Part shown: piece by piece, positions 33,031 to 35,428 of the stretch
Layout of the letters: the number at the start of each line of letters is the position of its first letter
How positions within the stretch are numbered: position 1 is the stretch's first letter
Assembly (NCBI GenBank): GCA_040881685.1
Contig: JBBECS010000015.1
Location: 96,159 to 131,586 of the forward strand
DNA length: 35,428 nt
Source of the DNA: Acidimicrobiia bacterium
GTDB lineage: Bacteria > Actinomycetota > Acidimicrobiia > IMCC26256 > PALSA-555
Direction: 5' to 3'
Translations under genes and position numbers: made by a program
Notes under the pieces: model-generated
Told to the model about the DNA's origin: nothing
Databases searched by the model: none
The model's input: the letters and a program-made list of their open reading frames with translations, nothing else

Positions 33031-33038
33031 ATCCTTGA
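33031..33038 (+). repeat. Left target site duplication (ATCCTTGA)
   Basis: Identical 8 bp flank both ends of the element (33031-33038 and 35384-35391). 8 bp is the typical duplication of IS1595-family insertion. Confidence 0.95.
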
Positions 33039-33080
33039 GGCAATTGGGTATTGACTGTAGAGAACGGTTGTTCTACAGTG
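33039..33080 (+). repeat. Left terminal inverted repeat
   Basis: 42 bp; 35 positions match the right end (35342-35383). Contains the element's promoter and a palindrome AGAAC-GGTT-GTTCT (33061-33074) with outer CTGT and ACAG. The first four mismatches (33049-33052) fall at the start of the -35 box, so only this end carries a promoter. Confidence 0.93.
33051..33079 (+). promoter_or_regulatory. Element promoter with LexA-like palindrome
   Basis: TTGACT (33051-33056) and TACAGT (33074-33079) with an exact 17-bp spacer. The spacer is mostly the AGAAC-N4-GTTCT palindrome. The -10 ends 7 bases before the ATG of the first gene, so the transcript should be leaderless. GAAC-N4-GTTC is the core of Gram-positive SOS boxes; binding by LexA or by the transposase are both possible. 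Confidence 0.75.
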
Positions 33081-33085
33081 CGGGT

Positions 33086-33322
33086 ATGGACCTTCGCCAA
33101 GCCCTTACGGACCATCGCAATCAGGCAGAGGCGGCAACGCCCCTCAGGGACATCATGAACGCCGTGCGGGCAGGCAGCCCGCCCGCCTACGGCTCCGGGG
33201 ACCGGCTCATCCCTGATGTTGAGATCTTCGGCGGGATGCTCGTCATGTACGAAGCCCTTTGGGACGCGGTGCTGCGCCTGTCGGACGAAATCGACACCCT
33301 TCGCGACGAGATCAGAAAGTAG
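33086..33322 (+). CDS. Small protein of unknown function, first gene of the IS1595 element
   Basis: 78 residues, cytoplasmic. Starts MDLRQALTDHRNQAEAATPL and ends in a charged helix (LRLSDEIDTLRDEIRK) with coiled-coil spacing. ATG 33086 is set by the promoter box 7 bases upstream. It ends 7 bases before the transposase ATG, so both are one transcript. I do not recognise it; being first in a transposase operon it may regulate or assist transposition, but this is a guess. Confidence 0.65.
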   Translation: MDLRQALTDHRNQAEAATPLRDIMNAVRAGSPPAYGSGDRLIPDVEIFGGMLVMYEALWDAVLRLSDEIDTLRDEIRK

Positions 33323-33329
33323 CGACACG

Positions 33330-34289
33330 ATGCCTCCTGCGAATCGAAAGAATCCCCAGCGAGCGGACTCGTCGGAGTCCCGGTACTCGCTGGTCGAGTT
33401 CATGGCCGAGTACCCCGACGACGAGGCGTGCCTGGTCGCGCTCTGGCGCGAGCGGTACTCGCCCGATGGGGAGCACGCCTACTGCCCCTCGCCGTCGTGC
33501 AAGACGGAGCGGACCTTCAAGCGGTACGCGACGACCCAGCAACGGCAATCGTGGACGTGCACGACGTGCGGCCACCACCTGCACCCGACCGCGGGGACGA
33601 TCTTCCACAAGTCGTCCACGTCGCTGCGCCAGTGGTTCTACTGCATGTACCTCATGACGAGTACACGCTGCGGAATCTCCGCGAAGCAGGTCGAGCGCGA
33701 GCTGGGATGCGCGTACAAGACCGCGCTGCGGATGATGCGGCTGATCCGCACCGAGTTGATGAATGACCAAGACGACGATCCCGAACCTCTCGCGGGTGAA
33801 GTCGAAGTGGACGAGACCTACGTGGGTGGCCGCACCCACGCGTACCCGCCGGTGCCATTCGCAGAGCAAAAGAGTCGCAAGGTGCCCGTACTCGCCATGG
33901 TCGAACGTGGCGGAAGCGTGCGGGCCGAAGTGCTCCCCACCGCAGGTGGCGCAGGCGCGCTGGAAGTCCGGCCGCTTGTGATGGAGAACGTCAAAGCCGG
34001 TTCGGTGCTCTACACCGACGAGTCCGTCCTGTACTGGGGGATGGACGCGCTGTACGACCACCGCCAGATCAACCACTCCGAGAAGGTGTACGTGCGCGGC
34101 GACGTGCACACCCAAACCATTGAAGGGTTCTTCTCGACCGTGAAGACCGGACTGATGGGCGTCTTCCACGGCGTGTCGCGCCGTTGGTTGCAGTCCTACA
34201 TCAACGAGTACGTCTTCCGGTACAACCACCGCGAAGGGATCGACCCCTTCAAGGTGCTGGTCGCGCTCGCGGCGCGGGCTACTCGCTAG
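33330..34289 (+). CDS. IS1595-family transposase
   Basis: 319 residues. An N-terminal zinc-ribbon has CPSPSC and CTTCGHH (about residues 50-90), followed by an HTH-like region (GISAKQVERELGCAYKTALRMMR). The ISXO2-like catalytic domain has GEVEVDETYVGGR (first Asp), LYTDESVLYWG (second Asp), and HTQTIEGFFSTVKTGLMGVFHGVS with the Glu, then FRYNHR at the end. Length is normal, and no frameshift or stop is seen, so the enzyme is probably active. The start at 33330 was chosen over an upstream in-frame start (33216) because it follows the 78-codon gene. Confidence 0.94.
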   Translation: MPPANRKNPQRADSSESRYSLVEFMAEYPDDEACLVALWRERYSPDGEHAYCPSPSCKTERTFKRYATTQQRQSWTCTTCGHHLHPTAGTIFHKSSTSLRQWFYCMYLMTSTRCGISAKQVERELGCAYKTALRMMRLIRTELMNDQDDDPEPLAGEVEVDETYVGGRTHAYPPVPFAEQKSRKVPVLAMVERGGSVRAEVLPTAGGAGALEVRPLVMENVKAGSVLYTDESVLYWGMDALYDHRQINHSEKVYVRGDVHTQTIEGFFSTVKTGLMGVFHGVSRRWLQSYINEYVFRYNHREGIDPFKVLVALAARATR

Positions 34290-34416
34290 CGGGCTTGGGC
34301 TTCTCGGGCTTGGGGGTAGCGACCTTGCGCAGCAAGCGATCCCAGGCTCCACGCTTCGGGACAGGGATCTCATGCCCCTGCTCCGTGTGCTGTGTCGGTT
34401 CCTGCTTCTTGCCCAT
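34279..34416 (-). CDS. Small 45-residue protein, minus strand
   Basis: MGKKQEPTQHTEQGHEIPVP followed by KRGAWDRLLRKVATPKPEKP and a short end. It has a very good ribosome site on the minus strand (GGAGG at 34420-34424, 3 bases before the ATG). Its 3' end overlaps the last 11 bases of the transposase gene in antisense. The 'EIPVPKR' stretch is familiar to me from small actinobacterial and phage hypothetical proteins, but I cannot confirm it. Highly basic and Pro-rich. The next plus-strand gene starts 19 bases away in divergent orientation. Confidence 0.6.
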   Translation of the reverse strand: MGKKQEPTQHTEQGHEIPVPKRGAWDRLLRKVATPKPEKPKPASE

Positions 34417-34435
34417 GATCCTCCGAGGGTAGACC

Positions 34436-35281
34436 GTGCTGGACCCCAGCGATTCTTGGTGGCTCAAGCTCGCGCGAGCACAGAAGCACCTCGACGACTT
34501 CAACGGGGTGGCCGCCAAGTACGCCTCGACTTGTGAACACCCGGTGCGTAAACGGTTGGAAGGCGAGGGCAAGCGCCAACGGACCGTGCATCGGATCGAC
34601 ATCGCTCAACCCGCCCCAGGTTTGTTCCTCCCCGTCGTGCTTGGAGACTTTCTGTTCAATCTCCGATCGGCACTCGATCACATCATGGTGCGCTCGGTCC
34701 CACGAAGGCGGCGGTTCAGCACTCAGTTTCCGATTTTCACTCAGGACATTTGGGAACGAAACGCTAAGGGGGACTACCTCAAGCGCCATGACGACGCTCG
34801 GAGAAATTGGTACACCTGGACACACGGACTGTCCGACGACGCTTTGACAATCGTCAAGGCTGCGCAACCGTTCAACGCAACCAACCCCGATCCAGCGGAA
34901 ATCGGCGTCAAGAATCACATGCTCGCGATACTCAGCGCCCTCCAGAACGCCGACAAGCACCGAGAGTTGGTCGTTGTCGGTGGTTACGTCAGCATGGAGC
35001 ACGTCCTTGCGAGGCTCCAGGATGGCAGCACCCACGCGATTCAGAGTTCGGTTCCTCCGCCCCCCGGACAGTCCCGGCACATACTTGAGCACCGCGCAGA
35101 AATCGATGTCGCGACGGTTCTCGACGCCGACCCCGCAACCGTGAATGTGGAGGTCAAGGGTTCCGTTGAAGTACTCGTCGGCCGCGGAGGTGACGACGCT
35201 CCCAAATGGAACCTCAGCACGTTGACCGATATGCACGGGTTCGTGAACAACCGCCTTTTGGACCTCGCGCGGCTGCTCTGA
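34436..35281 (+). CDS. Passenger protein of unknown function, IS1595 element
   Basis: 281 residues, no signal peptide. N-terminal charged helix (WWLKLARAQKHLDDF), a central GDFLFNLRSALDHI (about 70-83) and LQNADKHRELVVV (about 169-181), then a beta-rich C-terminal half. I recall this NLRSALDH plus NADKHR pattern from widespread uncharacterised bacterial and phage proteins. RSALDH fits the R-x4-H form of HEPN nucleases, but that alone is weak evidence. GTG start preceded by GAGGG; this ribosome site touches the one of the divergent minus-strand gene. Third-position GC is clearly lower than in the host genes. Confidence 0.75.
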   Translation: MLDPSDSWWLKLARAQKHLDDFNGVAAKYASTCEHPVRKRLEGEGKRQRTVHRIDIAQPAPGLFLPVVLGDFLFNLRSALDHIMVRSVPRRRRFSTQFPIFTQDIWERNAKGDYLKRHDDARRNWYTWTHGLSDDALTIVKAAQPFNATNPDPAEIGVKNHMLAILSALQNADKHRELVVVGGYVSMEHVLARLQDGSTHAIQSSVPPPPGQSRHILEHRAEIDVATVLDADPATVNVEVKGSVEVLVGRGGDDAPKWNLSTLTDMHGFVNNRLLDLARLL

Positions 35282-35285
35282 CCGC

Positions 35286-35337
35286 CCGGTCATGACCGGC
35301 CCCCGATAGCGCTTCACTGACCACCTCGCCAAGGTGG
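35286..35337 (+). terminator. Two hairpins after the passenger gene
   Basis: A perfect 14-bp palindrome CCGGTCATGACCGG (35286-35299) begins 5 bases after the stop, and CCACCT/AGGTGG with a 5-base loop lies at 35321-35337, just before the right end. Either may stop transcription leaving the element. Confidence 0.5.
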
Positions 35338-35341
35338 ACCC

Positions 35342-35383
35342 CACTGTAGAACAGGCGTTCTATACAGTCGTGCCCCAATTGCC
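35342..35383 (-). repeat. Right terminal inverted repeat
   Basis: Matches the left end over 35 of 42 bp. Contains the perfect 16-bp palindrome TAGAAC-AGGC-GTTCTA (35347-35362). The -35 box of the left end is destroyed here, so no inward promoter. Confidence 0.93.
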
Positions 35384-35391
35384 ATCCTTGA
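35384..35391 (+). repeat. Right target site duplication (ATCCTTGA)
   Basis: Same 8 bp as 33031-33038. Its last four bases TTGA are the first bases of the -35 box of the host promoter to the right. Confidence 0.95.
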
Positions 35392-35428
35392 CCCCGAACG
35401 GGTGTTCGGGTACGGTCTTGCACACGTG
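35388..35428 (+). promoter_or_regulatory. Host promoter with LexA (SOS) box, probably of recA
   Basis: TTGACC (35388-35393) and TACGGT (35411-35416) with an exact 17-bp spacer. The spacer contains CCCGAAC-GGGT-GTTCGGG (35393-35410), whose core CGAAC-N4-GTTCG matches the Gram-positive/actinobacterial SOS box. A GTG at the window end (35426-35428) lies 10 bases after the -10 and could be the start of the next gene. rimO-pgsA-cinA is usually followed by recA in actinobacteria, so recA is the best guess; the coding sequence itself is outside the window. Confidence 0.7.

Follow-up and report, generated by a model that had tools for sequence, protein, structure and literature searches.

The site choice of simple insertion sequences is poorly understood. 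Elements of the IS30 type insert into sites that resemble their own ends. Within the IS1595 family, ISApl4 generates AT-rich 8-bp duplications (PMC12561309). SOS control of insertion-sequence transposases is already known: the ISCR1 and ISCR8 transposases are SOS-controlled, with demonstrated LexA binding (PMC13393415), and there is older, disputed evidence for LexA control of IS50/Tn5 (PMC4265352). A full-text literature search covering few subscription papers returned no report of an insertion sequence or transposon that targets LexA boxes, and this target choice may be without published precedent. Here we describe an IS1595-type group of Actinomycetota, including an element inserted upstream of recA, that probably uses SOS operators (LexA boxes) as insertion sites.

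The window, a stretch of 35,428 nt from an Acidimicrobiia bacterium, holds at 33039–35383 an intact IS1595-family element whose exact boundaries follow from its terminal inverted repeats (TIRs) and an 8-bp duplication. Its features, and those of the target, are as follows.

33031..33038, no strand: left copy of the 8-bp target duplication ATCCTTGA, from the sequence
33039..33083, + strand: left TIR, 45 nt, 82% complementary to the right end
33051..33079, + strand: putative promoter TTGACT-17-TACAGT embedded in the left TIR, from the sequence
33062..33073, no strand: left LexA-like box GAACGGTTGTTC, pattern match, motif score 12.0
33086..33322, + strand: 78-aa ORF preceding the transposase, read from the sequence
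33330..34289, + strand: IS1595-family DDE transposase, 319 aa, with PF12762 and NF033547 matches
34436..35281, + strand: passenger gene, 281 aa, of the same family as in L131, L190, L191, and L130
35339..35383, − strand: right TIR, 45 nt, by complementarity to the left end
35349..35360, no strand: right LexA-like box GAACAGGCGTTC, pattern match, motif score 15.6
35384..35391, no strand: right copy of the target duplication ATCCTTGA, whose TTGA rebuilds the recA −35
35388..35416, + strand: recA promoter TTGACC-17-TACGGT of the target, from the sequence
35396..35407, no strand: recA LexA box, separated from the duplication by 4 nt, pattern match

A reading of the sequence alone had assigned the element to the IS1595 family, and this assignment was borne out. 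The transposase matched PF12762 (E = 2.5e-34) and NF033547 (E = 1.2e-50; 172 bits against a cut-off of 75), both TIRs start with GGCAATTGGG and thus with the GG characteristic of the family, and ATCCTTGA on both sides agrees with the duplication of about 8 bp known for IS1595 elements and with the 8 bp found in the relatives. Residues D161, D230, and E265, presumed to be catalytic, are intact and are conserved across a 27-sequence alignment (A3). The predicted structure (pLDDT 85.6) has an integrase fold; a fold search with it matched the integrase core alone and gave nothing on how a box might be read, a PDB sequence search returned nothing useful, and no part of the transposase was recognized as a LexA-like domain. 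Neither the 78-aa ORF nor the 281-aa passenger had a match in Pfam, NCBIfam, or PHROG, and the passenger model (pLDDT 35) was too poor for use. Passengers of the window element, L131, L190, L191, and L130 share GDxxxNxRSALDH..NxDKH; those of L005, L188, L193, L024, L135, and the window are unlike one another. By eye, the RSALDH segment conforms to R-x4-H, a motif of HEPN nucleases, and RNNFEH is present in the passenger of L188. A search of the host genome revealed no extra copies of the element, with one transposase and only these two ends.

Directly beyond the right end of the element lies a third LexA box, 12 bp outside it and within the recA promoter, which the sequence-only reading had missed. 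The junction runs ATCCTTGA-CCCC-GAACGGGTGTTC upstream of recA, such that the duplication stops 4 nt before the recA box and its TTGA restores a −35 (TTGACC, 35388) that pairs with the −10 TACGGT (35411). The downstream gene was reached through contig C19, which shares 55 bp with the end of the window, begins in the right tip of the element, and continues into recA (identified by Pfam; GTG start at L002:180). The 55-bp stretch shared by the end of contig C15 and the start of C19 (window 35374–35428) sits at the element–recA junction and may reflect the coexistence of cells that have the insertion and cells that lack it. Altogether, GAAC-N4-GTTC occurs three times in the window compared to 0.53 expected, a count reached in 2 of 100 shuffles, and 58 times genome-wide compared to 25 for a reversed control.

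Transposase relatives were gathered from genomes, most of them draft assemblies, and from viral contigs, and their element ends were located by script. Three near relatives (L026, L027, L028) have right flanks that extend beyond contig ends. A plasmid search yielded distant relatives alone, and family-level searches around genomes G455 and G686 gave no new members. The insertions beside LexA boxes, with the distance from the duplication to GAAC and the gene behind the box, were as follows.

L005: 7 nt; imuB, then dnaE2
L190: 4 nt; imuB
L191: 4 nt; imuB
L188, two stacked copies: 4 nt for the outer copy, inner spacing blurred by a lost stretch; imuB
L131: 4 nt; a small LysM protein
L193: 4 nt; an HTH plus LAGLIDADG-like gene, by eye
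L135: 4 nt; a PDDEXK-like gene, element in the opposite orientation
L024: 5 nt; a DUF222-like gene

The target genes recA, imuB, and LysM were assigned by Pfam, and the matches to DUF222 and PDDEXK_5 were below the cut-off. At these targets the boxes have the LexA-operator core and stand upstream of SOS genes, and in every such case the element lies on the gene-distal side of the box. Spacing follows the transposase clade where the clade is known (4 nt for L131, the outer copy of L188, L190, and L191; 7 nt for L005), and insertion at LexA sites occurs in five transposase lineages with unlike TIRs. Different element types are stacked at one site in L188, and a third end lies to the left of L190. 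No box was found near L025, L130, L133, L134, L138, L139, L192, L199, or L206.

Among cellular elements with both flanks available, 9 of 23 had a LexA box no more than 20 nt away from the duplication, compared to 0.0003 boxes per element predicted from local background (P about 5e-26). The viral-borne relatives had no neighboring box and were used as a control set; of 50 IS1595 elements that were either viral-borne or distant, none had a box nearby (Fisher 8e-6). As an independent and blind assay, 299 genomes belonging to a single class were scanned for a pattern consisting of a TIR end, 12–15 nt, and a box, in which a gap of 12 corresponds to a spacing of 4 and a gap of 15 to a spacing of 7. 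This pattern gave 10 matches, each in a separate genome (4 known and 6 new), and the reversed pattern gave none. All 10 were upstream of imuB or an SOS-type LysM gene, and of the gaps allowed only 12 (six matches) and 15 (four matches) were used. Common ancestry of some imuB insertions within one family is possible and would lower the effective number; the imuB-site insertions in that family involve two transposase clades and different duplications.

Several further arrangements were also recorded. Several IS1595 ends are stacked at one imuB site in L190 (3935) and L188 (3611–6284), with the same duplications, GGCTTGAC and CCCTTGAC, and L033 (G045) has two tandem IS1595 copies with a common duplication, ACGCGTGA. 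A sister lineage with the TIR tip CACA(C) inserts in TGTG-N8-CACA, which resembles the CRP-type site TGTGA-N6-TCACA, and both junctions rebuild the palindrome (L194, L196, L202, and more weakly L197, together with the left flanks of L198, L208, and L210). The left flank of L210 (G974) has GAACACCTGTTC at a distance of 7 nt from what is presumably the duplication of an element of the CACACATATG type. The L192 element (G959) interrupts the palindrome CCTAGTAACAGACTGTTACTAGG at its center and seems to have a 9-bp duplication, and L195, L200, L201, and L203–L205 have TGTCAAG..CTTGACA-like palindromes on the left, both within the transposase promoter and ahead of it.

The operator is most likely recognized during target choice, either by the transposase or via bound LexA, because the spacing is fixed and different elements use the same sites repeatedly. 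The −35 sequence TTGAC was rejected as a landmark: L193, L135, and L024 have no TTGAC and yet retain spacings of 4, 4, and 5 nt, which identifies the box as the landmark, and at recA the cut preserves the 4-nt distance from the box while its position relative to TTGAC changes. Under our preferred model, strand transfer would take place at a fixed distance from the operator. The 8-bp duplication would then stop 4 nt short of GAAC (7 nt in one subclade) and invariably lie on the gene-distal side of the box. The element would land within the −35 or immediately upstream of it, the promoter would be rebuilt by the duplication, and the SOS gene could stay under LexA control after insertion. SOS operators would thereby offer a harmless and widely conserved landing place at recA, imuB-dnaE2, LysM, and nuclease-like genes. 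Selection could hide insertions made elsewhere or on the side toward the gene.

Two versions of operator recognition appear equally plausible to us. The transposase may contact operator-bound LexA, much as Ty3 uses TFIIIB, and insert at the edge of the repressor footprint; we give this version a little under an even chance. Because TIRs differ widely across lineages and the target box does not, bound LexA is attractive as a conserved host protein that would be the simplest common factor, and insertion at 4–7 nt is where the footprint edge would be expected. However, the spacing is lineage-specific, a LexA tether would be lost upon SOS induction, and insertions of the sister lineage split TGTG-N8-CACA at its middle and restore it at both junctions, which looks like direct reading of DNA. 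Alternatively, and with a standing that likewise falls somewhat short of even, the transposase may itself recognize GAAC-N4-GTTC in the target, with LexA merely masking ends and targets until DNA is damaged. This version is made plausible by the lineage-specific spacing (4 or 7 nt at the same promoters) and by the tip of the sister lineage, whose CACA matches its target and rebuilds it; the window copy, moreover, has the same core in both TIRs. Against direct recognition, the other LexA-targeting elements have no GAAC-N4-GTTC core in their TIRs, and no LexA-like domain was recognized in the transposase.

The same core at the ends of the window element had been noticed from the sequence alone, where it was proposed to be either a LexA operator that makes transposition damage-inducible or, more simply, the transposase binding site. 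Both palindromes are present where they had been placed. Each has the GAAC-N4-GTTC core of a LexA operator within a longer, imperfect dyad, ACTGTA-(GA/TA)-GAAC-N4-GTTC-TACAGT, with two extra bases in one arm. The left palindrome (33062–33073) lies between a −35 (TTGACT, 33051–33056) and a −10 (TACAGT, 33074–33079) spaced by 17 nt, just as the box in the host recA promoter does, and the right one is at 35349–35360. The first gene downstream of this promoter is the 78-aa ORF, with the transposase second, and the first ATG (33086) is only 6 nt past the −10, so the transcript would probably be leaderless.

To score these boxes, a host LexA motif was built from 14 SOS boxes of the same genome, with leave-one-out scoring; the source genes were recA, lexA (two boxes), and, by eye, imuA, dnaE2, ruvC, dinB, uvrA, DUF222-type, and alkB-like genes. 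The Streptomyces motif tCGAAC-N4-GNNCGa (PMC9380542) agrees with it. Thirteen of the 14 host boxes have C-GAAC..GTTC-G, the exception being lexA box 1 (C..T), and their scores ranged from 16.3 to 27.5 bits. The TIR boxes scored 12.0 (left) and 15.6 (right), under all 14, and are flanked by A..T instead of C..G, so that the full host motif cGAAC-N4-GTTCg is absent from both. Nevertheless, the right-end core GAACAGGCGTTC is identical in every letter to one of the two boxes upstream of host lexA. LexA binding to the predicted TIR boxes is thus possible, if perhaps weak. As an account of the palindromes, damage-inducible control by LexA is a credible, partly supported reading that we hold slightly less probable than its negation: the core, the promoter position, the core shared with a lexA box, and the precedents of ISCR1/ISCR8 and IS50 support it, and the low scores, the A..T flanks, and a right-end copy that has no promoter to control argue against it. 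Alignment of the TIR ends of relatives, the check proposed with that reading, also went against it, as the palindrome does not track host LexA and GAAC-N4-GTTC was absent from the TIRs of every relative found.

Those relatives retain the outer ACTGTA half without the LexA core, and the nearest of them (L130, L132, L133, L027, and L066) have TTGACTGTA(G/T)A in their TIRs. Conservation of the whole palindrome among relatives was therefore rejected, and the core is peculiar to the window copy among the elements found, because the relatives' ends keep TTGACTGTA(G/T)A without GAAC..GTTC. The shared outer half is what a transposase binding site would predict, and none of the eight positions at which the two TIRs differ lies in the dyad arms (P = 0.005), for which reason the arms look constrained at both ends. 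That the palindrome is solely such a binding site, resembling a LexA box by chance, is nonetheless doubtful: the core is missing in relatives, and a chance match would be odd where kin target exactly GAAC-N4-GTTC. Neither LexA control nor transposase binding covers the main fact, which is insertion beside LexA boxes. Random insertion, with survivors only upstream of tolerant SOS promoters, would fit the gene-distal position of all insertions but is very improbable, as neither a 4-nt spacing seen in four lineages nor the 10-to-0 outcome of the pattern assay can arise from survival.

If operators are recognized during target choice, whatever recognizes the target boxes may act on the LexA-like ends of the window copy as well, and damage-induced transposition of this copy is possible. 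Should the transposase read DNA directly, LexA on ends and targets could, as a conjecture, form a common lock released by DNA damage, which would simultaneously switch on the transposase, uncover the ends, and uncover the targets. The full combination, in which a lineage inserts by LexA operators at fixed geometry and the window copy bears operators on its own ends, we regard as unlikely, though worth stating. Across several lineages and hosts, these small single-transposase elements have repeatedly settled, to the exact nucleotide, at one kind of regulatory site. As the SOS regulon controls mutation and repair, they sit where expression of recA or imuB could change. Whether the repressor guides the transposase or the transposase reads the operator is a testable question, and a compact transposase with a defined target is a possible yield.

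Compared to IS30-type elements, the window copy is alike in that its target motif is also found in its TIRs, whereas other LexA-targeting relatives do not have the motif there. The group shares with the IS1595 family (Siguier et al., 2009; for example, ISApl4) the DDE_Tnp_IS1595 transposase, GG-initial TIRs, 8-bp duplication, and passenger genes, but for ISApl4 AT-rich duplications and no operator target are reported (PMC12561309), whereas the window group keeps a constant spacing between insertion and LexA box. Tn7-like elements, in the accessible part of PMC10293859, likewise use a conserved, harmless site by a core gene, spare that gene, and can stack. They have a dedicated target selector, whereas none was found in the window group, in which an unrecognized selector is possible; and their landmark, in that same part of the source, is the end of one gene, whereas here it is an operator upstream of several SOS genes. 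ISCR1/ISCR8 and IS50/Tn5 likewise have a LexA box inside the transposase promoter; in the accessible parts of PMC13393415 and PMC4265352, LexA concerns expression, with no mention of a box at the second end or of LexA-box targeting, and the window element has a LexA-like box at each end and is inserted next to a LexA box.
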